Assembly (NCBI GenBank): GCA_947462815.1
Contig: CANHQR010000023.1
Span: 1 to 48,459, forward strand
Direction: 5' to 3'
Source of the DNA: Pseudobdellovibrionaceae bacterium
GTDB lineage: Bacteria > Bdellovibrionota > Bdellovibrionia > Bdellovibrionales > JAMPXM01
DNA: 48,459 bases
Shown here one piece after another: positions 18,201 through 34,557 of the stretch. The first letter of the stretch is position 1; the number at the start of each line of letters is the position of its first letter. A program made the position numbers and the translations under genes. The notes beneath the pieces are model-generated. The model searched no databases. It saw only the letters and a program-made list of their open reading frames with translations, and was not told the DNA's origin.

Positions 18201-20097
18201 ATTGTTCACCATAAAATGCGTTGGAGGCGAAAATGGCATCCACCAGATTCGCAGTCGCGATGTTGCTGTTGATGAGAAGGAGCTGTGACCTCGTCCCAGA
18301 AGGTGAAGTCAACTCTATGCCGAGGTCGGAAGCAGAAGGGTGAACGGTTGATAAACGGATTTGAACAGCCTCGATCTTAAGGTTCTGTCGAAGATTAATG
18401 GTGTGACTCGCTCCTGTCGCAGAATTGTCAGGAATGCCGAGATCTATGGTCCCACTCGACTCGCCCCAGTTCGCGGTCAAATCGGCCGTACTCCTCAGAT
18501 TTGTCAGGGTCGAAGAGTAAGTCTTAGCAACAGCCATAGCGGCATCGACATCGACGGCGCCAAAGCCGTACCAATTGTGAAACCAAAAGCCTGCCTGGTT
18601 TTGTCGCCAGCCTTGCATGTAGGTGTGTCCGGTTAAATTCAAACCCCCTGGATGTGTTACCGAGGTCGAGCCTGAATGAACACGACGAGCTGATTTCGCC
18701 AGAATGTCTTTGATCTCGCGCCACGTGAGATGCGGATAGGCTTCAAGTAAAAGCGCAATTGCGCCTGAAGTGTTTGGAGCAGCCGAGGACGTTCCATTCA
18801 TCGTTGACGTGTAATTGCACTGTGAATTGAGAGAATGTGAGCCACTCTCGAAACTGTTGGCAGTGTTGGCGGTCCTCGATGCGCCTTGGGAGCATCCGGA
18901 GAAGTCAGCCGCGATGATGGCCGGCTTTCCGCCGGATTGTGCGCCTCCGTATTCACCGCCCGGTGCCGAGATCCAGAGATTTGAGCCAGGAGATGAGTAG
19001 CTTGAGCGCACATCGTGGGCGCCCAGAGCGCCGACGACAATGATGCCGGGGTGGTTGTTAATTTCGTCGAGAGATGAATTACCCAAGAAATAAAATTGTC
19101 GATTCGCAGGTGTAAATTGATTGCAAGACTCAAGATCGACGTAGTCGTAGCAATCATCAAAATCATTGCCGGCCGACTTGACATACAAGGCACCTTTTCC
19201 TCCTCTGCCATCTCTGAGCTGAGCCCAGATCTTTTCATGGATCAGCGAATTCATGGGGGATTGGAGAAACTGTGCCTTACCGTAACTGTAGTTAAAAATG
19301 TCGAAGTTTCCTCCGGCCTGGTGGACTTCAATTGAGGAGTTGCTTGGCGCGTCGTCAGCCAGAAGAAGAAAGTTCGCGACTTTCGCATTCGGCGCGATCC
19401 CCCGAAGACCTTTGTTGTTCCATCCGATCGCGGCGATAATGGAACTGACGGCAAGCCCATGCTCGTTATTTGGAACGTTGAGGTCAGGAGTTGGATCGCC
19501 CACATACGGAAAAGCCAGTTTGTAGTTTCGATGTTCGCCGCTTAAAAGATTTGCGCTCAGGTCTTCGTGATTCAGAGGCGAACCTGAATCGGACACGGCA
19601 ATCCGGACACCTTGTCCCGTGATTCCATCTCGAAGAGTTTGCGACATCTTGAGGTCGGCCCCGCTGATGCCACCCGAGTGGGCGAAGGCGGACTGACCGT
19701 TATTAAATATTGACCATTGATGTTCACGAAGAGGGTCACCTGCAATATTGACGACGTAGTTCTGAGATATAGATGCAGAGACTGTCCAGATTTTGAGGGT
19801 GAATGAAAAGCTGCCGGTGGCTGCTGAGGGCACTCCTTTTACGATGCATGTTGTGGGGCTTAGGCTCAGGAAGGCCGGGGCATTGACGAGCGTGCAGCCC
19901 GTTGACTCCGACGGAAGTTGCGGAATTAGGATCCACTCGCGATCTTGATAGGCTTGCTGGGTGATCGTTTCATGAGGATTCGTCGAAGAAGGAGGGGGTG
20001 ACGAACTTGCACCGGCACCGCCGCCTCCTCCTCCGCCGAGGCAAGCGGAAAGTGTGAAACTCAATGACATGATGAGAATGATTTTTGAAGTGTTCAT
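15298..20097 (-). CDS. Giant subtilisin-like (S8) lipoprotein with P domain and RCC1 repeats
   Basis: A 1599-residue lipoprotein. The lipobox LSAC (Cys19) is followed by seven glycines and a Ser/Pro linker. The S8 catalytic domain carries Asp170 (AVSDSG), His213 (NEHGLAVSS), oxyanion Asn311 (KSAGND) and Ser437 (NGTSSAAP). A proprotein-convertase P domain follows at about 550-662 (TIDLGIPDNSA, then WTIKVIDGFSGGNG). Next come FnIII- and Ig-like modules, including two tandem 80-residue repeats with SKTWxWSCSExCxY. The last 330 residues are RCC1-type repeats (VKCWGNNSNGQIGDGT). It is probably a cell-surface protease. The start is fixed by GGAGG and an ATGA overlap with the upstream gene. An N-terminal inhibitor-type propeptide is not evident; the upstream gene may supply it. 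Confidence 0.93.
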   Translation of the reverse strand: MNTSKIILIMSLSFTLSACLGGGGGGGAGASSSPPPSSTNPHETITQQAYQDREWILIPQLPSESTGCTLVNAPAFLSLSPTTCIVKGVPSAATGSFSFTLKIWTVSASISQNYVVNIAGDPLREHQWSIFNNGQSAFAHSGGISGADLKMSQTLRDGITGQGVRIAVSDSGSPLNHEDLSANLLSGEHRNYKLAFPYVGDPTPDLNVPNNEHGLAVSSIIAAIGWNNKGLRGIAPNAKVANFLLLADDAPSNSSIEVHQAGGNFDIFNYSYGKAQFLQSPMNSLIHEKIWAQLRDGRGGKGALYVKSAGNDFDDCYDYVDLESCNQFTPANRQFYFLGNSSLDEINNHPGIIVVGALGAHDVRSSYSSPGSNLWISAPGGEYGGAQSGGKPAIIAADFSGCSQGASRTANTANSFESGSHSLNSQCNYTSTMNGTSSAAPNTSGAIALLLEAYPHLTWREIKDILAKSARRVHSGSTSVTHPGGLNLTGHTYMQGWRQNQAGFWFHNWYGFGAVDVDAAMAVAKTYSSTLTNLRSTADLTANWGESSGTIDLGIPDNSATGASHTINLRQNLKIEAVQIRLSTVHPSASDLGIELTSPSGTRSQLLLINSNIATANLVDAIFASNAFYGEQSAGNWTIKVIDGFSGGNGQLTKWDLRVYGHIPAARPDLNPPIAVASVSHAATFNSSHTSPVVTWPATASSDLLRYEVSVGTSPGATNTSPWRSAGALTSFSITDLNLSAGQTYYVNVRVVDQWENVSSVTTSSGWLYTTEAAPTISIGHPLLALGNSSASFDYPIGISGAANLTLSIGQISLTTTGSATCANKSVSGAGLTSRTVSLSGCSGNGTVRISIAAGAATSSMGVASAAAGPSNSITIDNTAPTISGLSDNSTPVRSKTWSWSCSEVCTYQVVVDTSPSTSPSTSFLAGSSVSQTTGTGTYYVHVRARDSAGNLSTVSHAFAVLDNTAPALTGLSADSTWRTSKTWNWSCSEACSYRFSVSTSSTWSPTGTFSAVASTSQTSGTGTYYLHVQAEDVAGNTSEVTTVSALLDNTAPTSPSGLSLSAAFLSSLTQTPTIVFTNGSDSGQSGIAQHQVRIQRVSDNAVVQDWTSHTSGALISGLSLASNMSYRIQVSALDHVGLRSPIISATWIADTTSPTPPSNLTLSAYSNGLSESPILTFSVSSDSGSGLAGYSARIVRASDSQQVLGFMSITSGNRLTGLSLDDSTNYTIELRAADLAGNTSTVVTQNWSTNLILFNELASTDESFCGITTAGSVKCWGQVPHYGVKSTPFAIPNLTSGVSAIAGSPYNYCVIQSGNVLCFGPFLDGSNATSHPPTAIAGLQSGTATEISLSNTTYCAIDAGTVKCWGNNSNGQIGDGTQTHRTSPVSVTSVAGTATQISLSSQGSTCMMINDLRYCWGNNDNSKHYLGLEYSSGVYLLSPSTLWRRADALTRMKNGFYGIKADGTLHCWGQAHPCDTPSSTPYTPAGMTNISDIAGYGTKPPSSGVNGGVCFIQSGSVRCLGNNSYGAMGRVPISTSDFSNFVNVSGSGGTYLKIAGRYPSFCAIRSDQSVQCWGRNNKGQLGDKTTVDSATVVNLNGN

Positions 20098-20867
20098 TTG
20101 GCCTCCAAGCGACCCCAAACGAGGTCGAGTTCGGCCCTCTGAACTTCGGGATGTTCTTGGAGTGATCTGAGCACTTTGAAGCGATCTTGGAGAGGTGGAA
20201 CCCGAAGAAATGCGGTCTGAATCTGAGGATCCCACATGACCAGGTCAAGGTTGACGCCTGAGAGCTCAGGAATATTCCGACCTTTTAGTCTCGCACTGAT
20301 GAGATTGTTGACGAAGAAAAAGCGGTTTTGGTCAGAGTCGTAGTAAACCATCAGGTCATCCGTGGCAGGGCTAGAGAGATCGGACTGATTGTAGATGTAA
20401 TAACCATTCAATTTTCCTAATGGTTCGACGTCGGGAAGTTTTGAATGATGAGCTCTCACATTTGGTGCTTGGCGGGCACGTGTATTGCCGATCTTTTCGA
20501 TTTCCGCTTTTATCTGCAGGAACTTGGGTAACGAAGGACCGTTGTTTGACCTTACGAATTTTCCTGAAAAGGCGTTTTGATCGTGAGTGTTTTCACGTAC
20601 TGAATCAGTTATTGAGGCGGTGCGCCTGAGCCCTTGTTGAGAATCTGGGACAAGATGAGCTTTGGTTTCTGTTTCGGCACTCATTTTAGAGCGGGCGACT
20701 TCATCTCGGGAATTTGGATCGGTTTCAAATGTTCTGTCGAGACCACGCCATCGCAAAAAAGAGACGAATACAGTGAGCAGCATTGCGCATGCAACTCCGA
20801 CGATCCACACTTTGATCGTTCCGACATTTAATTTCGTCATCTCAGGTTTCATTTCTGGCGATTTCAT
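20094..20867 (-). CDS. Membrane-anchored protein, possible propeptide/chaperone of the S8 protease
   Basis: A 257-residue protein with one N-terminal membrane helix (VWIVGVACAMLLTVFVSFL), a disordered linker and a C-terminal domain. The last 45 residues, ending FKVLRSLQEHPEVQRAELDLVW, resemble the beta-strand/helix 'LxxHPxVxxxE' pattern of I9 subtilisin propeptides. Its stop overlaps the protease ATG (ATGA), so the two are made together. The idea that it acts in trans as folding chaperone or inhibitor is inference from position and that weak resemblance. The three Met codons at residues 1, 6 and 10 leave the start unsure. Confidence 0.7.
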   Translation of the reverse strand: MKSPEMKPEMTKLNVGTIKVWIVGVACAMLLTVFVSFLRWRGLDRTFETDPNSRDEVARSKMSAETETKAHLVPDSQQGLRRTASITDSVRENTHDQNAFSGKFVRSNNGPSLPKFLQIKAEIEKIGNTRARQAPNVRAHHSKLPDVEPLGKLNGYYIYNQSDLSSPATDDLMVYYDSDQNRFFFVNNLISARLKGRNIPELSGVNLDLVMWDPQIQTAFLRVPPLQDRFKVLRSLQEHPEVQRAELDLVWGRLEAK

Positions 20868-22234: not shown

Positions 22235-25200
22235 TCAAAGATCAGCGAGCTCGAGCAACTCGCTGGCCTTGAGATGGCGCACGCCATGGCGCGCTTCGAG
22301 GCGACCGCGCAGATGCAAAATGGGCGAAGCGTAAAGCTGAAGACGCAGGCGTTGGTAGACCTCGGGCATAAGGATGATGTTGCTGATGCCGGTTTCGTCT
22401 TCGAGCGAGAGAAAAGCGACACCTTTAGCCGTCGGCGGTTTTTGCATCATGGTCAGTAGACCCGCGACTTGCACATCGGCACCGTGGCCGAGGGTGGTGA
22501 GTTCGGCAGCGGTGCGTGTGCCTGTGCGCTGCAGCTGTGGACGCAGAAGCTTGAGCGGATGCGTGTCGAGAGCAAAGCCCTTGGTGGCGAACTCGCGCTG
22601 CACGCGTTGCCATTGAGATTCGCGCGAGATGTTTTCGCGGCCATCATCCTGCTGTGTGACGGGTTCGCTCGCGTAGAAGAAACTTCCTTGATCATAGTTG
22701 ATGCCTTGCAGGCGATAGAGCGCGAGGCGCGCATCGGATTCTAGCGCGCTGAGCGCGCCGGCTTGGGCGAGGCGTGTGCAAGTTTTGCGCGCCAGCCGCG
22801 TGCGGCGTACGAAGTCCTCGAGATCGCGGAAGGGTGTGAGTGATGCGGGCGCTGTGGTTGGTGTGAGTGGCGTGGTGGTTTCGTGGGCTTGTGATGCGCT
22901 GTGACCCGCGCCAGCGCGTGCATCGAGATTCGTGTTGGTGAATGACACGGAGTAACCCGCGCCAGCGCGTAGGACGTTCTGGTCGTGTGTGGAGGTGTCG
23001 CTTGCGCCGGTTGACGCCGTGTGACCCGCGCCAGCGCGGATGAGCGGAGGAACGTCTGTGCCAACATGCGCGTTTGGACTCGCGCCAATGTGCGCGTCGC
23101 GGGCGGCGATCTCCGGAGACTGCGGGCTACGCGCGTCGCCACAAGACGCGCCACGCGCGGCGATGATCTTTTGCGCGTCGAGCTCGGACAAGCCGTTAAT
23201 GCAGCGAAGACCCGTGCGGATCAGGCCGGGCGCGATGACTTCGTAGTCCCAATGCGAGTGATTGACGTCGAGGGGGAGGAAGCGGACGCCGTTTCGTTGG
23301 GCCTCGTGAATGAGTTGGCGGGGCGGGTAGAAGCCCATCGGCTGAGAGTTGAGCAGCGAAGCGACGAACACGTCGGGGTGGTGTCGCTTGAGCCAGCAGC
23401 TGACATAGGTGATGAGAGCGAAGCTCGCGGCGTGGGATTCCGGAAAGCCATAGGACGCGAAGCCCTCGATCACACGATAGATTTGGTCGGCGTACTCGGT
23501 GCTCAGACCGTTGGCGAGCATGCCGTTGATGAGTCGCTGGCGAAGTCCGTGCATCACGGCTTTCTTTTTCCAGGCGCTGGAGACCACGCGCCGGAGTTCA
23601 TCGGCCTCGCCAGGCGTGAAGCCGGCGACCTCGACGGCGATCTGCATGATTTGCTCTTGGAAGAGCGGCACACCGAGAGTTTTCTGCAGCACTTTGCGAA
23701 GCCGCGGATGCGCGTAGCTGACGCGCTCAAGACCATCGCGACGACGCAAGTAAGGATGCACCATACCGCCTTGTATGGGGCCAGGGCGCACGATTGCGAC
23801 ACTAATGACCAGATCATACCAAGTGCGCGGCTTCAGGCGCGGGAGCAAGGCCATCTGAGCGCGCGATTCGATTTGAAAGACGCCGGTGGTTTGTGCGCGT
23901 TGGATCATCTCGTAGGTCGCGGGATCTTCTTGCGGGATGGTGGTGAGATCGTGTTCGATTTTCTTCACCCGCTGGAGAGTTTCGAGAGCTTTGCGAATCG
24001 CGGTGAGCATGCCGAGTGACAGCACGTCGATCTTCATGAGGCCGAGCAGATTCACGTCGTCTTTGTTCCATTGGATGACGTAGCGATTGGTCATGGTCGC
24101 GGCCTCGACGGGCACCAGATCGATGACGGGTTCGTGTGAGATGATGAAGCCGCCGGTGTGAATGCCGAGATGGCGAGGGAAGCCGACAAGCTCGCGCGCG
24201 CGTCGCACGAGCAGATCGAAGCGTTCGGGTGTCAGGCCATAGCGTGTGGGATCGAAGGGCTCGTGTGCGGCGGGGTTTTGCAAGCGTGAGAGTCCCTCGC
24301 GACCCATGTACTTGACCAAGGCATCGACAGTGGGTGTGGGCACACCGAAGGCCCGGGCGACATCGCGAATCGCGAGTCTGGATCTATAGCATATGGTGGT
24401 GCAGACCATGGCCGCACGCTCGGCACCGTACTTTTGATAGATGTACTGAATCACTTCTTCGCGTCGCTCGTGCTCAAAGTCGATGTCGATGTCGGGCGGT
24501 TCGTTGCGTTCGCGCGAGAGAAAGCGCTCAAACAAGAGTCCCAGTTTGATCGGATCAATCGCCGTGAGCCCGAGCGCGAAGCAGACAATCGAGTTCGCGG
24601 CCGAGCCGCGGCCTTGGTGCAGGATGCCGCGCGTGCGGGCAAACTGGCAGACATCCCAGAGTGTGAGGAAGTAGTCTTCGTACTCGAGATCACGGATCAG
24701 CTCGAGCTCATGCGCGACTTGGGCTCGAGCCTTGCGCAGAATTTCCGGCGGCGTCCACGCGGGATAGCGCCATTCGACACCTTGCTCGACCAGTTTTTTG
24801 AGAAAGCTGGCGGAGGTCTCGCCCGGTGGAATCAATTCTTGGGGGTATTTGTAGCGCAGTTCGCGAAGCGAGAACTGCAGGCGTCGCGAAACATCGAGAG
24901 TACGCGTGAGGAGATCGGGTCGATCGCGGTAGAGCTCTTGCAGCTCATGGAGAGGCTTCAGGTGTCGCTCGCTATTGGTGAGCAGACGTGTGTGAGCCTC
25001 TTGCAGCGTCGTTTTTTCGTGCAGGCAGGTGAGGATGTCGTGCAGCGGCCGGCGCTCCGGCGCGTGAAATAGCGGTCGCTGCGAGGCGATCAGTTGCACG
25101 CCGAGTTTTGTTTCATACGCGAGCGCTTGGCGAGCGAGTGCAATCGACGACCAAGTGTAGTCTTTGGTCACCGGCAGATACAGACGATCCCCGAAACTCG

Positions 25201-25939
25201 CGTGCAGACGTTCGATCTGCGCGTCCGTCCAAGGCGGGAGCGCAATGGCGATCAGATCGCCGCTGCGATCGCCGGCCTCTTCGACAAGTTCGTCGAAACT
25301 CAGTTTGATCTTGGCTTTCGCCGCCGGCCGCTTCACGCGTGTGATCAGTCGCGACAGCAGACGATAGCCGTCGATGTTCATCGGCAAGAGCACCAAGGGA
25401 CTAGCGTCAAAGGGCGTGAGTTCGGCGCCGACGTGATAGCGGAAGTCCGCGCCACGTTCTTGATGAAGCGCGAGGCCCTCGGCATCGAAGTGACTGGGGC
25501 GTTCGGCAGCCTGATGTCCGCGCACGACACCATACAGTCCGTTCACATCGGCGAGCGCCAGGCCCTTGTAGCCGAGACGCTTGGCCTGCTCGACCATCTC
25601 CTCGGGGTGTGAGGCCCCACGCAGGAAGGAAAAATTTGAGCGTGCCAGCAGCTCGACGTAGTCAGCAGATGCCGGCGTTGGTGTGCGTTCTGAGTCTGGT
25701 GTCGGCGCGGATTCTGGCGCAGTGTGACCCGCGCCAGCGCTTGCATCGAGGTCTACGCTGGCGAATGACGCCGTGTGACCCGCGCCAGCGCGGATGAGCT
25801 GACCAGAAGCGCGACCAGAGCCGCGTTCCGAGCCGCCACCAGAAGCACTCTCAGAAGCGTACGAGCACGTCGAAGCTGGCGAGTAGGAGGAGGGCGAGGA
25901 AGGCCACGCAGGTAAAGACAAGCTCTTCTTGTGTTGCAT
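22235..25939 (-). CDS. dnaE2: Error-prone DNA polymerase III alpha, DnaE2
   Basis: A 1234-residue C-family polymerase for damage-induced translesion synthesis, working with ImuA and ImuB. The conserved core begins at VELLARSNFSFLRGASHPEE (about residue 93). The PHP motif is degenerate (ALADVNGLYGVVRGH), as usual for DnaE2. The active-site aspartates are in PPDIDIDFEHE. The C-terminus has the OB-fold (VQVAGLLTMMQKPPTAKG, LSLEDETG). Two regions depart from the family: a 91-residue low-complexity N-terminal extension and an insert of about 107 residues before PFRDLEDFVRRT, both containing AGAGHTAS-type repeats. No in-frame ATG, GTG or TTG exists between codon 7 and the core, so translation must begin inside the small ORF at 25851-26024. 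The ATG at 25939 has no clear ribosome site. Confidence 0.93.
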   Translation of the reverse strand: MQHKKSLSLPAWPSSPSSYSPASTCSYASESASGGGSERGSGRASGQLIRAGAGHTASFASVDLDASAGAGHTAPESAPTPDSERTPTPASADYVELLARSNFSFLRGASHPEEMVEQAKRLGYKGLALADVNGLYGVVRGHQAAERPSHFDAEGLALHQERGADFRYHVGAELTPFDASPLVLLPMNIDGYRLLSRLITRVKRPAAKAKIKLSFDELVEEAGDRSGDLIAIALPPWTDAQIERLHASFGDRLYLPVTKDYTWSSIALARQALAYETKLGVQLIASQRPLFHAPERRPLHDILTCLHEKTTLQEAHTRLLTNSERHLKPLHELQELYRDRPDLLTRTLDVSRRLQFSLRELRYKYPQELIPPGETSASFLKKLVEQGVEWRYPAWTPPEILRKARAQVAHELELIRDLEYEDYFLTLWDVCQFARTRGILHQGRGSAANSIVCFALGLTAIDPIKLGLLFERFLSRERNEPPDIDIDFEHERREEVIQYIYQKYGAERAAMVCTTICYRSRLAIRDVARAFGVPTPTVDALVKYMGREGLSRLQNPAAHEPFDPTRYGLTPERFDLLVRRARELVGFPRHLGIHTGGFIISHEPVIDLVPVEAATMTNRYVIQWNKDDVNLLGLMKIDVLSLGMLTAIRKALETLQRVKKIEHDLTTIPQEDPATYEMIQRAQTTGVFQIESRAQMALLPRLKPRTWYDLVISVAIVRPGPIQGGMVHPYLRRRDGLERVSYAHPRLRKVLQKTLGVPLFQEQIMQIAVEVAGFTPGEADELRRVVSSAWKKKAVMHGLRQRLINGMLANGLSTEYADQIYRVIEGFASYGFPESHAASFALITYVSCWLKRHHPDVFVASLLNSQPMGFYPPRQLIHEAQRNGVRFLPLDVNHSHWDYEVIAPGLIRTGLRCINGLSELDAQKIIAARGASCGDARSPQSPEIAARDAHIGASPNAHVGTDVPPLIRAGAGHTASTGASDTSTHDQNVLRAGAGYSVSFTNTNLDARAGAGHSASQAHETTTPLTPTTAPASLTPFRDLEDFVRRTRLARKTCTRLAQAGALSALESDARLALYRLQGINYDQGSFFYASEPVTQQDDGRENISRESQWQRVQREFATKGFALDTHPLKLLRPQLQRTGTRTAAELTTLGHGADVQVAGLLTMMQKPPTAKGVAFLSLEDETGISNIILMPEVYQRLRLQLYASPILHLRGRLEARHGVRHLKASELLELADL
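22901..23038. repeat. Cluster of three GC-rich repeat cores inside dnaE2
   Basis: Cores of GTGACCCGCGCCAGCGCG lie at 22901-22918, 22952-22969 (one change, GTAACC) and 23021-23038. The 3' half is a near-palindrome, CGCGC-CA-GCGCG. On the dnaE2 strand they read Arg-Ala-Gly-Ala-Gly-His/Tyr. All keep the reading frame and sit in the interdomain insert. Flanking sequence is shared with the copies at 25724-25792. Confidence 0.85.
25724..25792. repeat. Second cluster of the GC-rich repeat, in the dnaE2 N-terminal extension
   Basis: Cores at 25724-25741 (last base changed) and 25775-25792. The pair together with the 33 bp between them aligns with 22901-22969: both have GCATCGAG after the first core and a GAATGAC block before the second. 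The second core with its flanks (TGACGCCGT before, CGGATGAGC after) also matches 23021-23038. The cluster was therefore duplicated as a longer unit within one gene. Confidence 0.85.
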
Positions 25940-26024
25940 AGTTGGACTCGGTTCGGCGAATGGCGCGCGCGATGAGAGGGCGAGGTGAAGCAGGAACCGA
26001 GATGGGGCGTCGTGATGTCATCAT
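25851..26024 (-). CDS. Small membrane protein overlapping the start of dnaE2
   Basis: A 57-residue frame starting at one of two consecutive ATGs, preceded by a strong ribosome site (GAGGAG, six bases). The N-terminus is basic and proline-rich (MMTSRRPISVPASPRP). Residues 34-55 are one membrane helix (EELVFTCVAFLALLLLASF), followed by DVLVRF. It lies 98 bp behind imuB and overlaps the dnaE2 start by about 89 bp in another frame. Its translation may be coupled to that of dnaE2. A membrane component in an ImuABC cassette is not standard, so it could also be a chance frame; the ribosome site and helix argue otherwise. Confidence 0.5.
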   Translation of the reverse strand: MMTSRRPISVPASPRPLIARAIRRTESNYATQEELVFTCVAFLALLLLASFDVLVRF

Positions 26025-26050
26025 GTTCACTCCTCGTAGGGTTGAGTGTT

Positions 26051-26120
26051 GAGCTAAGGCGAACTGAGAACGGAGCTAAGGCGAACTGAGAACGGAGCTA
26101 AGGCGAACTGAGAACGGAGC
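26051..26120. repeat. 22-bp tandem repeat, 3.2 copies
   Basis: Units GAGCTAAGGCGAACTGAGAACG at 26051, 26073 and 26095 are identical; a four-base partial follows. They fill the gap between the imuB stop and the small membrane ORF. Identity between units points to recent slippage. Confidence 0.9.
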
Positions 26121-26122
26121 CT

Positions 26123-27589
26123 TCAGTCGAAATAACCGTGACGGTAAAATCGCGACGTCGACTTCTCCTGATACAGCCACTGGGCTCGCCCACGTGGATC
26201 GACAGCGACATAGTAGTCCCGCGTGTCGCTCAGGCGACTGGCTCCGCGATCGCCGGGCGGTCCGGCCTCGCCGTTGTGGAGAGGCCCGGCGCGTGTTTCC
26301 CACCAAGCGGACTCCAGGCGCTCCAAGGGGTGTGTACTGAGAAGCTGCAGCTCTTGGCGTTCGTCTTCGCTGAGTGGCTCGGCTTGGCGAAGCATCAAGC
26401 TTGGCCGAGGTGCCGCGAGCAGATCCTGCGCATAACGTGCGTGGGGAACAAAGCCGGTTTCCTCATCCCACTCGCCGTAAGCCGGAGCCTCCGCATGTGC
26501 GGCGCGCGGTGTGCGCGACCACGACACCGCGTCTTCGGGCGCCCGGCGGTCTTCGCGGCGGGCGAAGCCGCACTCAAGACCTTCGAGTTGCAAGAGCGCG
26601 GTCAGGCGATCGATTTTGAGGGCGAGTTCTTGGCGCTGATTTTCGCCGGCGTCGAGCAGGTCGATTTGTTGTTCGTTCTCGGGCATCGGCTCGACTTCGA
26701 TTTCGAGATCTTTGATGGGATTGTCGAGATCGAGTTGACCCAGCCGACTTTCGATCAGACTCATGAAGAAGCCGCGTTCGCGCGAAGGTGTGGCGGGCTC
26801 GAGCGCCAGCTGATGAACTTGATCGGAGTACTCGCACCGCAAGCGAAGGTGCAGACGGCGAACGACGAGACGACGCCCTTCGAGACGTGCGAACAACTGA
26901 CGGATCGCGCTGTCGATTTCGTGAAGAAGCAGTGAAACCATGCCGACCGGGAAGTCGAGGACCACGGTGCGTTCGAGGCGCTCACTGGATTGATAGGGCG
27001 AAATCGCAGTGGGCTCGAGTCCTAAAAGCCGCCTCCGAATTTGCTCGCCGGTCCTACCCCAACGCTCTTGAAAGCTTTCCGCTTGAAAGCCGCCGACTTC
27101 ACTCAAGCGGTGAAGCCCGAGCATGGCGAAGAAAGAAGCGACTTGCGAGACGCGCGCGGGCGATTCCCAAGCCTGCAGGCCTTCGAGATCTAGTAGCGAG
27201 GTCAGGGGCAGTTCGCCGAGGGCCTCGCCCACATCGCCATCGCGGCCCATGATCCACTCGCCGTGCGCACAGGCGAGGGCCTGAGCTGTCGCCGGTGAGT
27301 CGGCAATTCCCACAAGAAGCGTCGACTCCACGCCGAGCTGTCGAAAGAGTTGGCGCACAGCTTGGGCCAAGCCTTCGGCAGACGCGTGCACACGCGTGAG
27401 ATAGCCGGCAGCACAGGCGAGATCGAGAAAAAACCAAGTTCGCGTTTCAGTCGATCGATAGGTCAGCCGCGGGGAGAAGCGCAGCAGCGACTCCGCGTAA
27501 GCGGGCGCTTCGATCGGGTGCAGGGCGGTTCCGATCGCGAGGACGCAGGACGAGGCGGGGATCGACGGGTTCGAGGAAGGCTTCGACAT
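26123..27589 (-). CDS. imuB: ImuB, Y-family polymerase-like mutasome protein
   Basis: A 488-residue protein. ImuB is a catalytically inactive Y-family polymerase homologue that recruits DnaE2 to the beta clamp during damage-induced mutagenesis. The family-typical segment is WFFLDLACAAGYL followed by LLVGIADSPATAQALACAHGEW, corresponding to the palm/fingers part. Helix-hairpin-helix-like LTSLLDLEGLQAWESPARV and the little-finger region follow, and the tail ends DYYVAVDPRGRAQWLYQEK. The N-terminus seems about 60 residues shorter than usual ImuB, lacking the 'LWLPDWPVQ' start. ATG at 27589 has AAAGGAG upstream; the longer frame to 27820 only shadows imuA. The start lies 143 bp inside imuA. Confidence 0.85.
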   Translation of the reverse strand: MSKPSSNPSIPASSCVLAIGTALHPIEAPAYAESLLRFSPRLTYRSTETRTWFFLDLACAAGYLTRVHASAEGLAQAVRQLFRQLGVESTLLVGIADSPATAQALACAHGEWIMGRDGDVGEALGELPLTSLLDLEGLQAWESPARVSQVASFFAMLGLHRLSEVGGFQAESFQERWGRTGEQIRRRLLGLEPTAISPYQSSERLERTVVLDFPVGMVSLLLHEIDSAIRQLFARLEGRRLVVRRLHLRLRCEYSDQVHQLALEPATPSRERGFFMSLIESRLGQLDLDNPIKDLEIEVEPMPENEQQIDLLDAGENQRQELALKIDRLTALLQLEGLECGFARREDRRAPEDAVSWSRTPRAAHAEAPAYGEWDEETGFVPHARYAQDLLAAPRPSLMLRQAEPLSEDERQELQLLSTHPLERLESAWWETRAGPLHNGEAGPPGDRGASRLSDTRDYYVAVDPRGRAQWLYQEKSTSRFYRHGYFD

Positions 27590-28610
27590 GAGCGTAGCTC
27601 CTTTCGATTCGGTGGGGTGTGGGGCGATGTTGGGCACGTGTGATCCAGACTTCGCGGCGATCGATCCGAAGAGCGAGCGCCGCGGCCTGATGCAGTTGCT
27701 GGATGGCCGACGAGTGAGAGTTTTTCTTGTCGAGAGGCTTTCCACGTAGCTGACGGGCGCCCCACGCCTCAGACGATGAGTCTTCTGGGATTGTTCCTGG
27801 CAATTTCTCTGGAGTCTCAAGATGCGACTTTGTCTCGAAGTTCAAAAGCGATTGATCAAGATCGGTCAGTAAAATGAGAGCCGCTCCGGAGCGACGAGCT
27901 TGCGCAAGGAGTTGGCGAATTTCCGTTGGTCGAAGCGGTGTACGCGAAGGTTGATTCGAGTGCGCACGACGATCGACGGCCATTCGCGAAGCAGGGAAGG
28001 CCTCTTGTCCACGAGCAGAGTCGTCACTCCGGAGTTGGTGCTGAATTGAATGTCGGGAGCTGCAGCTCACCGAAGCCGAGCTTGCTGGTGTCGAGTTCGA
28101 GCGATGCAAAGCTGTGGTTGAAACCTCGGTGCGAAGATCCAAAACCATAAGACTGAAAGCTCGCGTCGCTAGAATTTCTTGCCAGGCCCAAGCCGCGCGT
28201 CGCTCTTGCTCGCGCGTGTCGCGTGGCGTGTGCACGCAGAGCAAAGCCTCGGTCTGCACGCGCCAACGATCAGCGAGACCCGCGGGATTGAGGCGAAGTC
28301 GCGAATCGCTATGCGCCCAGGCCACGGCTTGGCCACGTTGAGTGAGTGGTGCCATGGAGCGCGCGATGAGAGTCGTGGCGCCGCAACCCCAGAGAGCCTC
28401 GATCCAACTCAGCTCACCGCGAGGCCAGCCGCCGCCGACCACAAAGCTGTCGAGCGGCGCCCAATGCGACGCGAGCCCCTGGGCGGGCCGTACCTGCTCC
28501 TCACTTAAAAGCTTTGCGCCGAGCTCACGCCGAAGTTCGGCAAGTCGCGGGTTGAGCGAGGTCGCGGGCGCCTCATGTTGAAGTTCACGATCGATTTTAG
28601 ACAAAGCCAT
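27447..28610 (-). CDS. imuA: ImuA, RecA-like mutasome accessory protein
   Basis: A 387-residue protein in the position and with the overall pattern of ImuA (SulA/RecA-like). The Walker A region reads ALWGCGATTLIA, lacking the lysine of active ATPases. A Walker B-like FSLMVLDLR follows, then RSGAALILLTD and the C-terminal ALALRIDRREVW. A poorly conserved Ser/Arg-rich insert lies at about 170-225. The last 47 residues are translated from DNA that also encodes the start of ImuB in another frame, suggesting the original stop was lost and the tail is incidental. AAGGGA precedes ATG. It lies 82 bp behind lexA, probably in the same transcript. Confidence 0.82.
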   Translation of the reverse strand: MALSKIDRELQHEAPATSLNPRLAELRRELGAKLLSEEQVRPAQGLASHWAPLDSFVVGGGWPRGELSWIEALWGCGATTLIARSMAPLTQRGQAVAWAHSDSRLRLNPAGLADRWRVQTEALLCVHTPRDTREQERRAAWAWQEILATRAFSLMVLDLRTEVSTTALHRSNSTPASSASVSCSSRHSIQHQLRSDDSARGQEAFPASRMAVDRRAHSNQPSRTPLRPTEIRQLLAQARRSGAALILLTDLDQSLLNFETKSHLETPEKLPGTIPEDSSSEAWGARQLRGKPLDKKNSHSSAIQQLHQAAALALRIDRREVWITRAQHRPTPHRIERSYAHVEAFLEPVDPRLVLRPRDRNRPAPDRSARLRGVAAALLPAADLSID

Positions 28611-28692
28611 TCCCTTCGCGCCGATCCGGCGCGTGAAAACACTGTATTCATCAATTTGTTAGGTCATTCTGAAGTTCGAATGCGCTTGAGGA

Positions 28693-29478
28693 CTACCAGA
28701 ACTTACGAATCAGTCCGACAACGACGCCGCGAATTTGCACAGCGCGAGGATCACACCAAATCGATGTCATCTCCGAGTTCGCGGGTCGCAATTCGACTTT
28801 GGGTCTTTGCTGGCGGTCATCAGACTTATGAATATAGAAGCGCTTCACAGTAGCTTCTTCTTGGCCACGCTCACTTTCGACCACAGCGACGACGATCTCG
28901 CCGTTGTGCGCTTGGCTCTGGCGCTGTACGAGGATCACGTCGCCGTCGAGAATGCCGTCGTCGATCATCGAGCGACCGCGCACGCGAAGCGCGAAGGTAC
29001 GATCCGGAGACTTCACGAGTGAAGCCGGCACATCGATGAACTCGTCGTTCTCATAGGCCTCTAGAGGTGCGCCCGCGGCGACACGGCCGAGAAGAGGTAG
29101 TTGCACGGCTTCTGGTGTAGAATCCCCGCTTGGGGCCATTGGTACAGCGGATCTCTCACGCTCTTCGATCACCTCTTGGTAGGCCGAGGACGAACGCAGC
29201 AAACGAATCGCGCGCTTCTGATTGCCGCCACCAAGTGCGATGTAGTGCTTGGCCTCAAGCTGCTTCAAGTAGCGTTGTGCAGAGTTGAAAGATGCGAAGC
29301 CAAAGTGTGAACAAATCTCTTGATAGGTTGGCGCCATACCATTCAAGCGCGCATAGCCTTCCAAAAACTCGAGCACGACTTTTTCTTTGGGCGTGAGCGG
29401 CGTGGGCGCGCTCTCGTCCTTGCGAGCTTCGACTTTGTCATCGAATCGATCGTCCTGTGGAAAAGCCTGTTTATCCAT
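28693..29478 (-). CDS. lexA: LexA repressor
   Basis: A 261-residue SOS repressor and self-cleaving protease. The winged helix-turn-helix is at about 28-95 (LTPKEKVVLEFLEGYARLNG, TYQEICSHFGF, SAQRYLKQLEAK). The cleavage site is Ala135-Gly136 in GRVAAGAP, catalytic Ser170 is in RVRGRSMIDDG and Lys212 in ATVKRFY. RecA filaments trigger self-cleavage and release of the target genes. ATG at 29478 is chosen because GAGGGAG lies just upstream; a start 33 bases earlier lacks one. It is about 50 residues longer than Escherichia coli LexA, mainly an acidic N-terminus and linker. It is first in the imuA-imuB-dnaE2 cassette and likely autoregulated through the adjacent 11-bp array. Confidence 0.96.
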   Translation of the reverse strand: MDKQAFPQDDRFDDKVEARKDESAPTPLTPKEKVVLEFLEGYARLNGMAPTYQEICSHFGFASFNSAQRYLKQLEAKHYIALGGGNQKRAIRLLRSSSAYQEVIEERERSAVPMAPSGDSTPEAVQLPLLGRVAAGAPLEAYENDEFIDVPASLVKSPDRTFALRVRGRSMIDDGILDGDVILVQRQSQAHNGEIVVAVVESERGQEEATVKRFYIHKSDDRQQRPKVELRPANSEMTSIWCDPRAVQIRGVVVGLIRKFW

Positions 29479-29507
29479 CTCAACTCCCTCTAGCGTCGGG
29501 GGTGTGT

Positions 29508-29573
29508 GCAAGTCACCTGTAAGTCATGTGTGAGAAACGTGTAACTGATGTGTAAGTTAGGGGTAAATTCTTT
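29508..29573. repeat. Six 11-bp direct repeats over the lexA promoter (putative operator array)
   Basis: Units start at 29508, 29519, 29530, 29541, 29552 and 29563: GCAAGTCACCT, GTAAGTCATGT, GTGAGAAACGT, GTAACTGATGT, GTAAGTTAGGG, GTAAATTCTTT. Consensus is GTAAGTCATGT; G at position 1 and A at position 4 are invariant. The 11-bp period is close to one helical turn, so all units face the same side of the DNA. GTAA equals one half of the palindrome (TTAC-N3-GTAA) described for Bdellovibrio LexA, but here it is directly repeated. Confidence 0.75.
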
Positions 29574-29775: not shown

Positions 29776-29887
29776 ATTTGTCCAAAGATCGCGAGCGCTC
29801 TCATAAGTTGTTTTGGAGCCTTGCGCACTCATCGACTCTAAATCATCAAAATTATTGCTGATCCCTTACAATTCTTAAAACTAAGAT

Positions 29888-29907
29888 TTTAGTTGTTAAC
29901 AACTAAA
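29888..29907. promoter_or_regulatory. 20-bp perfect palindrome, probable BlaI-type operator
   Basis: TTTAGTTGTT followed by its exact reverse complement, 34 bp before the repressor start. The symmetry continues with one 3-base interruption on each side (ACTAA-GAT left, GAT-TTAGT right), giving a two-tier dyad of about 38 bp. The position upstream of a BlaI-family gene fits autoregulation by a dimer. Confidence 0.7.
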
Positions 29908-29940
29908 GATTTAGTTAATCTTTCAAGCATTGGGGGCCGC

Positions 29941-30336
29941 GTGAAGAGATCCAAGGGCAAAGAAGTAAAGCTGCTGACGGAAACCGAACTTGAGTTGATG
30001 ACCATTCTGTGGCGCCTCGGGGAGGGCTCTGTCGCCGATGTGATGGAGCAACTGCCGAAGACGCGCGATCTCGCCTACACGTCGGTTTCAACCATCCTTC
30101 GAATTTTAGAGCAAAAGAAGGTGCTGAAAGCTCGCAAAGAAGGGCGCGGTCACATCTATAGGCCGGATCTCAAGAAGGCGGACTACGAAGCGAAAACGGT
30201 GAAGCATGTCGTTGACCGTGTCTTTGATGGTACACCTGTCGCGTTGGTTCGCCAGCTCTTGGATACGGTGAAGTTGAACGAAGTTGATCTCAATGAATTG
30301 AAGAAGCTGATCGAAGAGGCCGGAGGTAAAAAATGA
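29941..30336 (+). CDS. BlaI/MecI-family transcriptional repressor
   Basis: A 131-residue winged-helix repressor. LLTETELELMTILWRLGEGSVADVMEQL is the family's N-terminal winged helix. Then comes AYTSVSTILRILEQKKVLKARKEGRGHIY, the recognition helix and wing. The C-terminal dimerisation helices end LNELKKLIEEAGGKK. BlaI proteins repress beta-lactam or cell-wall stress genes and are inactivated when a partner M56 peptidase cuts them. GTG at 29941 is taken as start; a longer frame from 29893 would begin inside the operator palindrome. The stop overlaps the ATG of the M56 gene (ATGA), with GGAGGT at the end of this gene as that gene's ribosome site. Confidence 0.93.
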   Translation: MKRSKGKEVKLLTETELELMTILWRLGEGSVADVMEQLPKTRDLAYTSVSTILRILEQKKVLKARKEGRGHIYRPDLKKADYEAKTVKHVVDRVFDGTPVALVRQLLDTVKLNEVDLNELKKLIEEAGGKK

Positions 30337-31943
30337 GTTTGGCTCAGATCCTCTCGGCCTATCTGAATTTGAATCTTCTGATCCTCATCGGTTTTGCAGG
30401 ACTGGCTCTCTTCTCAATGATTCTCAGATTTGCCGGACGTCGCTTCTCTTCGAACAGAGAGCTCAAGTTGCAATACTGCGTGCTGATGGCGGTTCTCGGG
30501 CTCAGCGCGATTCACCCGCTCTTGCCTAGACAAGAAGTATTTACCCCGGCCGCAAAAGTTTGGTCAGCCCCCTCACTAAAGAGCTTTGCCGATGCCTACG
30601 GATCAACACAGCGCGGAGGCTATTTGATTTTTCTCACACCGGCCGGAACATCGACTCTCCAAGCGGATCGATTCGCAACGATCTGGTCATCTCTGGCCGT
30701 GCTTCTCATTTTCATGGGTGGCATATTCATTTTGCGTGAAATTCGCGTGCTGCTGAAACTAAGTCGCAGTTCATTTCTCATTCGACGCCTCGGTCGTGTA
30801 CGAATCTGCGTGAACGACGATATTCGTGTGCCCTTGTCTTATTGGTCTCCGGGCCGCGCGAACGTCGTTATACCTTCGGCCTTTCTCGAAGATCGAGAGA
30901 AGTATCAGATCGCGGTAGCCCACGAGATTCAGCATCACCGCCATGGCGATACGCAGTGGGTGTTCGTCTTATGGGGCTTGAAGTTAGTGTGTATCATCAA
31001 CCCCGTGATTCATATTTGGAACCGATGGATTTCAGAGATTCAAGAGTTTGCCTGTGATGAGACGTTGGTCGACCAAGGAAGAGTCGAGTCTCAGGCCTAT
31101 GCACGTTGCCTCGTCGAGGTGGCGCAAACCGCAGCCGATCAGAGATCTGTGCCTGTAGGCGCAACAGGCCTCATGTTTCTGATCGAACGCAAACTACTTC
31201 ATAGGAGGATCGAGAGAATGTTATCGAAATCATCAAACCAAGTTGGCCGGTCGATCGGCGTAGCCGTAGGTCTCGTCTTAGTGTTGGTCATGGGCGCGAC
31301 ATCCTATGCATCGAACAGCCTCGTGCAAGATCGACGCGTGAATATGGCTCAGGCGAGAGCCATGGCGCTACGAGCGCAAAGCCGAGTGGGATTCCCCGTG
31401 GTCGTGAACGACCTCGTACTGAAGCAGCTCAATCGCTACATTGGAACCCCTGAAGGGCGGGAGTTCATGCGCGACTCCCTTGCGCGAATGGAAAACTACA
31501 AGCAAGTCGTCGGCGATCACTTGGTTAAGTATGGAGTTCCTGTAGAAATCATGGCGTTGCCAATCGTGGAATCGGGCTATCAGAATCTTCCCCAACGAGT
31601 CGATGTGTCCATGAAGTCTGCAGGACTGTGGCAGTTCATACCGGAGACAGCGCGAAACTACGGATTGAAGGTCGATCGACGAGTCGATGAACGTCTCGAC
31701 GTCGCTCTCTTGACCGACGCGGCGATGCGCTACCTAAAATCGAACAATCTCCGCTTCAAGGACTGGCAGCTCTCACTTCTCGCCTACAATATGGGTGAGA
31801 ACGCCGTACAAAAAGGTATGGATGCTCTGAACACTCGCGACGCTTGGACACTGATCCGTGCGGGCTACGAAGGCGACTCCGACTATTTGGCCAAATTCAT
31901 GGCCGCGGTGCTGATCATGCAAAACCCTGATTCGGTTCAGTAA
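30333..31943 (+). CDS. BlaR1-type M56 metallopeptidase fused to a lytic transglycosylase domain
   Basis: A 536-residue membrane protein. Hydrophobic segments lie at about 12-34, 117-135, 208-228 and 306-323. The M56 zinc motif is HEIQH (197-201), with Glu238 in EIQEFACDE as likely third ligand. In BlaR1/MecR1 the C-terminus is a penicillin-binding sensor. Here residues about 355-536 instead resemble a lysozyme-like GH23 domain of the MltD/Slt type: IMALPIVESGYQ (catalytic Glu413), SAGLWQFIPETARNYG, then LSLLAYNMGENAVQKG. It is therefore a peptidoglycan-cleaving or muropeptide-sensing periplasmic domain joined to the protease that should inactivate the co-encoded repressor. That signalling logic is inferred from BlaR1; the domain order is seen directly. 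Confidence 0.9.
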   Translation: MSLAQILSAYLNLNLLILIGFAGLALFSMILRFAGRRFSSNRELKLQYCVLMAVLGLSAIHPLLPRQEVFTPAAKVWSAPSLKSFADAYGSTQRGGYLIFLTPAGTSTLQADRFATIWSSLAVLLIFMGGIFILREIRVLLKLSRSSFLIRRLGRVRICVNDDIRVPLSYWSPGRANVVIPSAFLEDREKYQIAVAHEIQHHRHGDTQWVFVLWGLKLVCIINPVIHIWNRWISEIQEFACDETLVDQGRVESQAYARCLVEVAQTAADQRSVPVGATGLMFLIERKLLHRRIERMLSKSSNQVGRSIGVAVGLVLVLVMGATSYASNSLVQDRRVNMAQARAMALRAQSRVGFPVVVNDLVLKQLNRYIGTPEGREFMRDSLARMENYKQVVGDHLVKYGVPVEIMALPIVESGYQNLPQRVDVSMKSAGLWQFIPETARNYGLKVDRRVDERLDVALLTDAAMRYLKSNNLRFKDWQLSLLAYNMGENAVQKGMDALNTRDAWTLIRAGYEGDSDYLAKFMAAVLIMQNPDSVQ

Positions 31944-31950
31944 CTGAGTG

Positions 31951-31979
31951 GCCTCTCGTGATGCGCGAGGGGCTTTTTT
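31951..31979 (+). terminator. Intrinsic terminator of the BlaI/M56 operon
   Basis: GCCTCTCG (31951-31958) pairs with CGAGGGGC (31966-31973, one G-U pair) around a 7-nt loop, followed directly by six T. It starts 7 bp after the M56 stop. Confidence 0.85.
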
Positions 31980-32057: not shown

Positions 32058-33623
32058 TTACCGAAGTCCATACCGACCTGGCGCGATGATCGAATTTGGA
32101 TCGAGTGCGCGCTTTATGGACTGATTTATTTCTGCCATTACCGGGGATGCAGTCGTGACTAATTCTTGTTGGTCGATGTTCACGCGGTAAGGATAAAAAC
32201 CCCGGCGATTGAACGCCGCAGTCAGTTCGCTCACGCACGTATGTGCGCGTGTCGACTCATCCGCCAATGAGCGAGAAAAGTGAATGCTGATGACGGCCTC
32301 GAGAATTCGCGGGGTGAGCATATTGAGAGTCATCGCGAAGCGAACTCGATGTTTTGCCGCAAGTTCCTCGGTCATCTGAACAAACAACTTCGAGTTTATC
32401 CCCGAAAGCGGAGCAAGGGGAGTGCAGAGCAGAAAGCCTTGGGGGTTGTCGTCCACTGATTGGCTTGGGACATCGAGTAGAAACTGAATGCCAGCATCCG
32501 AAGGCTTTCCCTCGTGAAATCCTCGAAGCGGTGCTGACGCCTCGATAACGAGTCGCTGATTTTCATTCAGAATCCGATCCCGACACCAGGTCTTGATTTG
32601 GTCTTTCCAAGACGGGCCTATCAATGCGTGCGAGTGAACACGCCCCAGAGACCCAAATGCTTTGCGGATGTGTTTGAGCTTTTCGCTCACAACGCTCGGC
32701 GACCCGGCAACGGCTGCTGTTAACATCCAATCGTCAGGTATGACGCGAGCGACAAGCTTGGTCGCGTCGTCAAGTGAAGCTCCCTTGGCTTTCGCCACAA
32801 GTGGGGCGATCGTAGAAATCGTCCGCTGCCGGTTGGCGAGATGAGGAATTCCGTGGAGATCGCCCTTGCTCAGCAGATCTCTAGCTCGATCGATAAACTC
32901 TGGGACATTTGCGTTTTGAAGAGAAACGGTGAGACCTATCAGCTTGTCAGGTCGAAAGTTCAACTGAAGCGTTCCCTCAAGCACAATCCCGAAATTCGAC
33001 TGAAAGAAAAGTCCATCGAGAGAAGGTCCCAATCCCCACGGATAAAGCCCCCTCAGTGCAGGCTGCGGATAGCTGCCAAAACCCGTTCGAAACTGTCTTC
33101 CATTCCCTAGAAGAATTTCCATGCCTGCAAGTTGTTGGGCTCGTAGACTACCGTAGGCGATACCCCTCTCAAGCGCGTTCCCGAGCAAACTTGTCTCGGC
33201 GCCTGATCCAGTGACGTCCACATAGAATCGACTACCTCGGCGAGCGAGCTCCTCCGCCAACTGTCGTTGCGTGACCCCAGGTTCGACGGTGGCCACACCG
33301 AACTCTTCGTCGATATTCAAAATTTTGTTGAGACCCGAAAGATCCAAAAGTGCCCCACCATCTTGCGTGGGAAGTTTAGATCCGTAACCCCAATTGAATC
33401 CGCGAGAGAAAGGAAAAAGTGGCACACGCCAATGATTGGCTTCGGCAACAATGTCTCTGAGGGCGCTTTTCTCCGTCACTCGTAGAAGGCACTGGAAGTT
33501 TCGTTGAAACTCGCCGACGTTGGATCTGGCTTGCCGCAGGGTGCTTTCCGTAACTTCGACGCCGGCGAGTTTTTTTTGGCGAATGGAGTCAGCGAAAGAA
33601 ACAAGAGCGCTATCGTTGTGCAT
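32058..33623 (-). CDS. FAD-dependent oxidase of the vanillyl-alcohol oxidase / 4-cresol dehydrogenase type
   Basis: A 521-residue flavoprotein. The N-terminal FAD-binding domain (PCMH/FAD_binding_4) shows LFPFSRGFNWGYGS, then GGALLDLSGLNKILNID, then ATVEPGVTQRQLAEEL and a long GSGAETSLLGNALERGI loop. The C-terminal cap ends ALDPNSIIAPGRYG, as in VAO-family enzymes, which oxidise para-substituted phenols. ATG at 33623 has GGAG eight bases upstream; the frame could start at a TTG two codons earlier. It overlaps the upstream FeeM-like gene by 14 bp, so the pair is one operon. A substrate made by that synthase, such as an N-acyl tyrosine, would fit a para-phenol oxidase, but this is inference. 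Confidence 0.85.
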   Translation of the reverse strand: MHNDSALVSFADSIRQKKLAGVEVTESTLRQARSNVGEFQRNFQCLLRVTEKSALRDIVAEANHWRVPLFPFSRGFNWGYGSKLPTQDGGALLDLSGLNKILNIDEEFGVATVEPGVTQRQLAEELARRGSRFYVDVTGSGAETSLLGNALERGIAYGSLRAQQLAGMEILLGNGRQFRTGFGSYPQPALRGLYPWGLGPSLDGLFFQSNFGIVLEGTLQLNFRPDKLIGLTVSLQNANVPEFIDRARDLLSKGDLHGIPHLANRQRTISTIAPLVAKAKGASLDDATKLVARVIPDDWMLTAAVAGSPSVVSEKLKHIRKAFGSLGRVHSHALIGPSWKDQIKTWCRDRILNENQRLVIEASAPLRGFHEGKPSDAGIQFLLDVPSQSVDDNPQGFLLCTPLAPLSGINSKLFVQMTEELAAKHRVRFAMTLNMLTPRILEAVISIHFSRSLADESTRAHTCVSELTAAFNRRGFYPYRVNIDQQELVTTASPVMAEINQSIKRALDPNSIIAPGRYGLR

Positions 33624-34557
33624 TTGCAAACTCCTGGATCACGTCGGCACATTCCGGCCACGGGTGATAAAGTTGAAGGAGCGTACTGAGCTGATCCGCC
33701 GTGAAGCTGGGAAGAAGTTCAGGCTTTGACTCGAGCACCTCGCGGAGTTGCGACGAGTTTCTTTGCGGAAGAACGCGATCGAGAGCTTCGCTTTGAGGTA
33801 AAGAAAAGTAGGCAGGCGGTTCCGCCAAGAAAAATTCCATGACGTTTTGACGACTGGGATAGCCGGCATAGGCGGTTCCGTAGGCCTTCAAGGCGGAGTC
33901 GAGGTCGAAGTACATCGGTATGACGGGAGCTCCGTTCGCAAAGTCGTAAGACAAAGTCTGCGTCCCAGGGATTCTCTTGAATAGTAGAATGGCCTCGTAA
34001 AGGGGGGACATTTTGGGGTTGACGCCAATGACTTCAGTGTTGGCTTTCAAGACGTCAATATTGCAGTGGTACATGTACTTCATCAGGTTAAATAGAACTT
34101 CACCTTGTACGCCGCGAATAGAGGGATCTACAGCGAGTGATGAGATCTCCACCACTCGACCTTTGATTCCTCGAACTGAGTCGAGAGAGACGCAGCGATC
34201 GATGGGTACTCCGAATGCCGTTCGCGGAATGATGGAGATGGTCGCAACGATCTGACCATCTAATTTCGCAACGATAACGACAGTTTCGGGGAGAATATGA
34301 TACGGAGTGAGACGAATCCCAGCTGAATCTCTGGTCGCGTAGCCTTCTCTTTCGAAGTTTCTTTGAACGAGAGATAAGGCCTGCTTGAGGTCTTGGGCGT
34401 TGGAAGCGATCTCAAAACGAATCTGAGTCGATCTCTGAGCTATCGAAAGATCCAGCGACTTGCGAATCCACCAATGAGCGATCTGTTGAGGAAAAAGCTT
34501 GAGAATAAACTCTCGAGCTCGATTCCGGAAGACTTTAAGCTTCGATCTTGGCTTCAT
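33610..34557 (-). CDS. FeeM-like N-acyl amino acid synthase (GNAT fold)
   Basis: A 315-residue protein. Residues about 45-225 follow the FeeM/acyl-homoserine-lactone synthase-like acyltransferase pattern: RFEIASNAQDLKQALSLVQRNF, EGYATRDSAGIRLTPYHILP, VVIVAKLDGQIVATISIIP, VVEISSLAVDPSIRG, and VIGVNPKMSPLYEAILLF. FeeM from soil DNA joins a long acyl chain from acyl carrier protein to tyrosine. Here the amino acid and acyl donor are unknown. The last 80 residues are a separate helical tail. A GAGAGAG stretch precedes ATG. The next gene, a VAO-type oxidase, overlaps its end. Other GNAT roles, such as autoinducer synthesis, cannot be excluded. Confidence 0.7.
   Translation of the reverse strand: MKPRSKLKVFRNRAREFILKLFPQQIAHWWIRKSLDLSIAQRSTQIRFEIASNAQDLKQALSLVQRNFEREGYATRDSAGIRLTPYHILPETVVIVAKLDGQIVATISIIPRTAFGVPIDRCVSLDSVRGIKGRVVEISSLAVDPSIRGVQGEVLFNLMKYMYHCNIDVLKANTEVIGVNPKMSPLYEAILLFKRIPGTQTLSYDFANGAPVIPMYFDLDSALKAYGTAYAGYPSRQNVMEFFLAEPPAYFSLPQSEALDRVLPQRNSSQLREVLESKPELLPSFTADQLSTLLQLYHPWPECADVIQEFANAQR

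Follow-up and report, generated by a model that had tools for sequence, protein, structure and literature searches.

BlaR1 is known for detecting antibiotics. In the BlaI-BlaR1 and MecI-MecR1 systems of Staphylococcus and Bacillus, a BlaI-family repressor and its operator dyads are paired with a membrane scaffold bearing an M56 zinc protease site (HExxH...ExxxD) and, outside the membrane, a C-terminal enzyme-like domain. The residues critical to BlaR1 are H201, E202, H205, D210, E242, D246, Y261 and R294, its EL1 loop has been described, and S. aureus BlaI is cleaved at the Asn101/Phe102 bond (PMC9834060). M56 domains are also found joined to wall hydrolases in M23-M56 proteins, which resemble the fusion discussed here in that respect; these are rare architectures with no known role, and no M56-GH23 protein is among them (PMC9662197). 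More generally, it has long been asked how bacteria sense wall-cutting enzymes, which are dangerous, and control their dose.

The cassette described here lies in a window of 48,459 nucleotides (the whole stretch of DNA that was analysed) and belongs to a 3.4 Mb genome in 107 contigs. It shares the repressor family, the protease site, the equivalents of Y261 and R294, the membrane scaffold, the external enzyme-like domain and the operator dyads with BlaI-BlaR1 and MecI-MecR1. Unlike BlaR1 and MecR1, however, it has a GH23 (lytic transglycosylase) domain as its predicted sensor and no penicillin-binding domain with SxxK. Its blaI gene precedes the protease gene with an ATGA overlap, no blaZ- or mecA-like target was found, the putative operator sequence is AACTAAN4TTAGTT, and the predicted P1' residue of the repressor is Leu106, as opposed to Phe102 in staphylococcal BlaI. 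Because the defining sensor and target are absent, the M56-GH23 system is not BlaR1/MecR1 proper, although it very probably works like them. A search of the open-access literature, with subscription papers and preprints outside its scope, found no description of M56-GH23 fusions. Since the unit and its putative DNA control site recur in many Bdellovibrio-like bacteria and in myxobacteria, the cassette looks like a real, undescribed wall-sensing system.

Organization of the cassette

The cassette (window positions 29,879-31,974) consists of two genes, encoding a BlaI-family repressor and then the M56-GH23 fusion. Its features are as follows.

29,879-29,894, no strand assigned: putative operator dyad 1, AACTAAGATTTTAGTT, a direct repeat/dyad conserved upstream of relatives
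29,888-29,907, no strand assigned: 20-bp perfect palindrome at the junction of dyads 1 and 2, formed by the right half of one dyad and the left half of the next
29,901-29,916, no strand assigned: putative operator dyad 2, AACTAAAGATTTAGTT, 22 bp start to start from dyad 1 and recognized on the same grounds
29,941-30,336, plus strand: BlaI/MecI-family repressor gene, 131 aa, GTG start (PF03965)
30,333-31,943, plus strand: M56 protease-GH23 lytic transglycosylase fusion gene, 536 aa, ATGA-coupled to the repressor
30,396-31,211, plus strand: M56 (BlaR1-like) membrane zinc protease domain, residues 22-293, with H197-E198-xx-H201, D206, E238, D242, Y256 and R292
30,522-30,662, plus strand: periplasmic loop, residues 64-110, between AlphaFold2 helices 40-63 and 111-145
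31,137-31,187, plus strand: loop 269-285, defined from alignments, with a bulky hydrophobic residue at 280
31,248-31,313, plus strand: last transmembrane helix, residues 306-327 (AlphaFold2), ending in the AxA-like motif SYA (324-326)
31,395-31,934, plus strand: periplasmic GH23 (MltD-like) domain, residues 355-534 (PF01464, MltD 8rhe/8rhf), catalytic Glu413
31,950-31,974, plus strand: intrinsic-terminator-like hairpin of 11 pairs, then a T run

Both the overlap at 30,333 and the terminator 3' of the fusion had been proposed in a first-pass annotation of this DNA, and both are present. An alternative repressor start, TTG at 29,893, was rejected in favor of GTG 29,941 because it falls inside the operator. 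A sigma-70 promoter scan upstream of the repressor revealed no convincing forward promoter there and was uninformative; a search for RNA families returned none.

The repressor

The repressor matches PF03965 over residues 12-126 (E=1.2e-31, 109.8 bits) and aligns without gaps to S. aureus BlaI (1sd4, 4e-9), which bears out its earlier identification as BlaI. Its recognition helix carries S50 and R54. From the ungapped alignment, the predicted cleavage site is Q105-L106. Leu occupies position 106 in 96% of the repressors of GH23 type, and it may be that the S1' pocket of the M56-GH23 protease prefers an aliphatic residue. BlaI is encoded directly upstream of the fusion in every cassette of the phylum set with complete 5' sequence, mostly with a 4-nt ATGA or GTGA overlap.

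The fusion protein

The earlier proposal of an M56 protease fused to a lytic transglycosylase holds: PF05569 (residues 22-293, E=4.6e-20, 72.4 bits against a curated cut-off of 31) and PF01464 (SLT/GH23, residues 403-505, E=3e-18, 65.9 bits) are matched in one 536-aa protein. NCBIfam and the PDB likewise assign the N-terminal part to BlaR1 and the C-terminal part to MltD, with PDB matches to S. aureus BlaR1 (residues 161-306, ~1e-5) and to MltD 8rhe (residues 375-534, 4.9e-19). A transpeptidase (penicillin-binding) domain is absent from the Pfam results for the fusion, and the GH23 domain takes the place of the penicillin-binding sensor, as had been suggested. Its span, first put at residues 340-536, is corrected to approximately 355-534, and the two sequence landmarks noted earlier, VESGYQ and AYNMGENAVQKG, both occur within it.

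Every critical BlaR1 residue has a counterpart in the fusion, namely H197, E198, H201, D206, E238, D242, Y256 and R292 in the order given above. Seven of these are invariant in 76/76 fusions, and D206 is invariant in the 42/42 fusions for which it was scored. In the GH23 domain, Glu413 is invariant (76/76), and the GxWQF and AYNxG motif residues W433 (75/76), Y485 (72/76) and G488 (72/76) are nearly so; in the AYN motif, some fusions have another residue at N486, for example L011 with SYY. Because active-site residues are invariant in 76/76 sequences, both the protease and the GH23 sites look functional. An invariant Glu413 would be expected of an active enzyme, but equally of a sensor that binds a ligand.

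An AlphaFold2 model built from 42 fusions (mean pLDDT 87, pTM 0.73) was used in place of an earlier one built from 7 sequences (pLDDT 75). Foldseek searches with this model returned MltD with bulgecin A (8rhf/8rhe) and S. aureus BlaR1 (8exp). The GH23 part has its fold, sequence and catalytic Glu in common with P. aeruginosa MltD (8rhe). However, no LysM was seen in the fusion, and its GH23 domain is anchored behind M56, whereas MltD is a free wall enzyme. In the M56 part, loop 64-110 would be the positional equivalent of BlaR1 EL1 and is poorly conserved beyond close relatives. Position 280 in loop 269-285 is M, L or F in 71/76 fusions. The BlaR1 autocleavage site is Ser283-Phe284, and loop 269-285 would correspond in position to the loop that carries it and may be cleaved there.

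The operator

A 20-bp palindrome had been put forward as the operator. The palindrome is real, but the conserved unit is a pair of 16-bp dyads with the consensus AACTAA-N4-TTAGTT; among relatives it is the dyads and the distance between them that are conserved and not the palindrome at the junction, and the single palindrome is therefore rejected as the operator. Two dyads 21-23 bp apart occur upstream of 71 of the 72 GH23-type cassettes with upstream sequence, a set that includes one cassette cut before its C-terminal domain. AACTAAN4TTAGTT is the best fit for 69 of these 71 pairs. The remaining cassette, L011, has dyads 31 bp apart. A dyad pair arises by chance in 0.15-0.24% of shuffled upstream sequences. 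The best reading of the double dyad is as the putative BlaI operator, to which the repressor would bind.

The exact dyad occurs twice in the whole host genome, both times at this operator, which agrees with the earlier suggestion that the compact cassette could be self-contained. No further BlaI or M56 genes above cut-off are present in the host genome. Relaxing the pattern to ACTAAN4TTAGT adds one site (C55:7552), within a fliN-like coding sequence, and a genome-wide regulon was rejected on the strict search. Over 46 related genomes, 63 of 73 strict dyads are located at cassettes and 10 elsewhere, as against 68 copies of a reversed-pattern control; there is thus no excess of strict dyads away from cassettes in this set. 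Strict copies of PBP-type operators (see below) similarly occur almost only at their own cassettes. The cassette has no beta-lactamase or resistant PBP gene as a neighbor and no conserved neighbor gene, with no flanking protein cluster in more than two loci. Given that strict dyads show no excess away from cassettes and that no flanking family is conserved, the detectable output is the cassette alone, which would make the GH23 domain the output in addition to the gauge. Weaker or half-site targets, beyond the reach of strict pattern searches, could make the regulon wider.

Distribution and cassette classes

Other M56-GH23 fusions, which the first-pass annotation had proposed to look for, are numerous. 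Approximately 76 were recovered, 49 of them in genomes of the window's own phylum, taken to be Bdellovibrionota, and the remainder mainly in Myxococcota (Myxococcus xanthus AM003, Archangium, Pyxidicoccus and Hyalangium) and Gammaproteobacteria (Steroidobacter agaridevorans and MAGs), along with a few MAGs of other labels. Beyond the phylum, a contig scan found the BlaI repressor and double-dyad operator with nearly all fusions. Recurrence on dozens of independent contigs indicates that the fusion is no assembly artefact. Two fusions, L012 (1105-3024, minus strand) and L182, are M56-GH23-M23 triple fusions. L182, from a record labelled Bacteroides sp. SM23_62, is without its N-terminal part, and BlaI was not detected there.

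A PF05569 search of 369 phylum genomes gave matches in 71. The 80 loci retrieved comprise 41 M56-GH23, 13 M56-PBP and 26 M56 loci without a recognized C-terminal domain, some of the 26 being truncated by contig ends; 8 more GH23 fusions, L012 among them, were found in the phylum beyond the 41. The M56-PBP cassettes (L165, L096, L097, L104, L106, L110, L113, L118, L136, L145, L152, L227 and L228) share the chassis of the GH23 type, with BlaI directly upstream and a double dyad mostly 22 bp apart (for example L013/L165, L096 and L110). They differ in having a transpeptidase domain, in most cases the operator TACTAAN4TTAGTA, and a distinct recognition helix: 98% of the repressors of GH23 type have S at BlaI residue 50 and R at residue 54, where the PBP type has A (100%) and K (93%). 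The M56-only loci (L099, L100, L108, L116, L120, L131, L135 and others) lie behind BlaI-like genes, mostly with the operator TACTACN4GTAGT(A/T) and with residues 50 and 54 different again, and are a third class of cassette.

Between the GH23 and PBP classes, the S/R or A/K pair changes together with the operator ends (A..T or T..A), and this covariation provides a ready specificity code. Because some genomes hold both cassettes (for example G117, G148 and G178), the two circuits are probably mutually insulated. In a tree of the M56 domain, architectures cluster strongly, with 8 changes in total as against 38.9 in shuffles. Most PBP forms branch from within the GH23 forms, a pattern suggestive of sensor replacement in the evolution of the family, in a tree whose deep branches are weak and for which no root was inferred. 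On the same tree, locus L206 groups with Myxococcaceae; its record, which bears the title Comamonas sp. KCTC 72670, is perhaps mislabelled or mixed.

A model for the cassette and its alternatives

By analogy with BlaR1, the cassette is probably, though by no means certainly, a regulated-proteolysis switch that controls only itself, with GH23 as both gauge and output. Repressor cleavage of the BlaR1 type is the most likely mode of action, and the protease site invariant in 76/76 fusions favors it. In such a model, BlaI on the double dyad would repress the operon, blaI-m56gh23, while the protease's last transmembrane helix would carry the GH23 domain in the periplasm. A ligand from the wall, be it a strand, a muropeptide or an inhibitor, would enter or leave the glycan cleft of GH23, and the EL1-like loop 64-110 may compete with it. 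This loop, or its displacement by a ligand in the cleft, would shift the sensor and helix 3, the signal would cross the membrane, and the autoinhibitory loop would leave the zinc site. The protease would then cut BlaI near Q105-L106, and derepression would yield more repressor and more membrane-anchored transglycosylase; re-made BlaI would reset the loop. We infer BlaI cleavage, a ligand, GH23 catalysis and the dual role of GH23. Candidates for the ligand are glycan strands, muropeptides, fragments of prey walls and an inhibitor resembling bulgecin. As was suggested earlier, the cassette may act as a wall-stress system.

It may be that GH23 is purely a sensor, binding glycan strands, muropeptides or prey wall fragments without catalysis as an output, and that BlaI controls other genes via weaker sites, as BlaR1 does with blaZ and mecA. 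The enzyme-like domain of BlaR1 is itself a sensor that has kept its active-site serine (PMC9834060), and PBP-type cassettes use the BlaI-M56 chassis within the same phylum. However, strict dyads elsewhere are not above chance in the 46 genomes, no neighbor gene is conserved, and the sole relaxed off-operator site is in the fliN-like coding sequence, making this reading an unlikely one, if the strongest competitor. Somewhat more doubtful is a model in which the protease is the controller and GH23 chiefly the effector, freed into the periplasm by autocleavage or through signal peptidase acting on the AxA-like motif. Right behind the last membrane helix, residue 324 is A or S in 67/76 fusions and residue 326 is A in 50/76, signal peptidase processes BlaR1 within the corresponding linker (PMC9834060), and L012 and L182 carry an M23 endopeptidase domain behind GH23. 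Nevertheless, motifs of the AxA type often follow hydrophobic helices, and release of GH23 would uncouple the sensor.

The parallel with BlaR1 could also be taken literally, with GH23 detecting transglycosylase inhibitors of the bulgecin type as BlaR1 detects beta-lactams, and with target overproduction (more transglycosylase) as the response. The closest solved fold to the GH23 part is MltD with bulgecin A bound, and the logic matches that of BlaR1, but a literature search for bulgecin with BlaR1 found nothing relevant, and we regard this as quite improbable. That the fusion arose by chance or is a pseudogene, with no role in regulation, is scarcely credible given approximately 76 independent fusions, invariant active sites and an operator conserved over several phyla.

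Returning to the self-controlling switch, a broader version can be offered more tentatively, as somewhat short of an even chance. The BlaI-M56 chassis may be a plug-in family of wall gauges, with GH23, GH23-M23 or transpeptidase sensor-effectors and an operator code for each class, in which the wall enzyme would itself measure the wall and set its own dose in an insulated closed loop. The cassettes suggest that BlaR1 exemplifies something more general, namely that a wall enzyme placed behind a membrane protease informs a repressor of the condition of the wall. The GH23 class may also expose a sensor of transglycosylase inhibitors. With its small size, its apparently closed circuit and its occurrence in a Myxococcus xanthus strain, the cassette lends itself to testing.

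Other genes in the window

Beside the cassette, the region 22,235-29,511 (minus strand) resembles a lexA-imuA-imuB-dnaE2 mutagenesis cassette. It contains lexA (28,693-29,511), an ImuA-like gene (27,447-28,610), an unassigned 565-aa open reading frame (26,123-27,820) and a 1234-aa DNA polymerase III alpha homologue (22,235-25,939). On the other side, at 32,058-34,557 (minus strand), a FAD-binding oxidase gene overlaps a gene with a match to the N-acyl amino acid synthase family FeeM (PF21926, 1.5e-29); these could be a small-molecule pair. Farther away, at 15,298-20,235 (minus strand), is a gene for a 1645-aa subtilase with a P-proprotein domain, Ig-like regions and RCC1 repeats.
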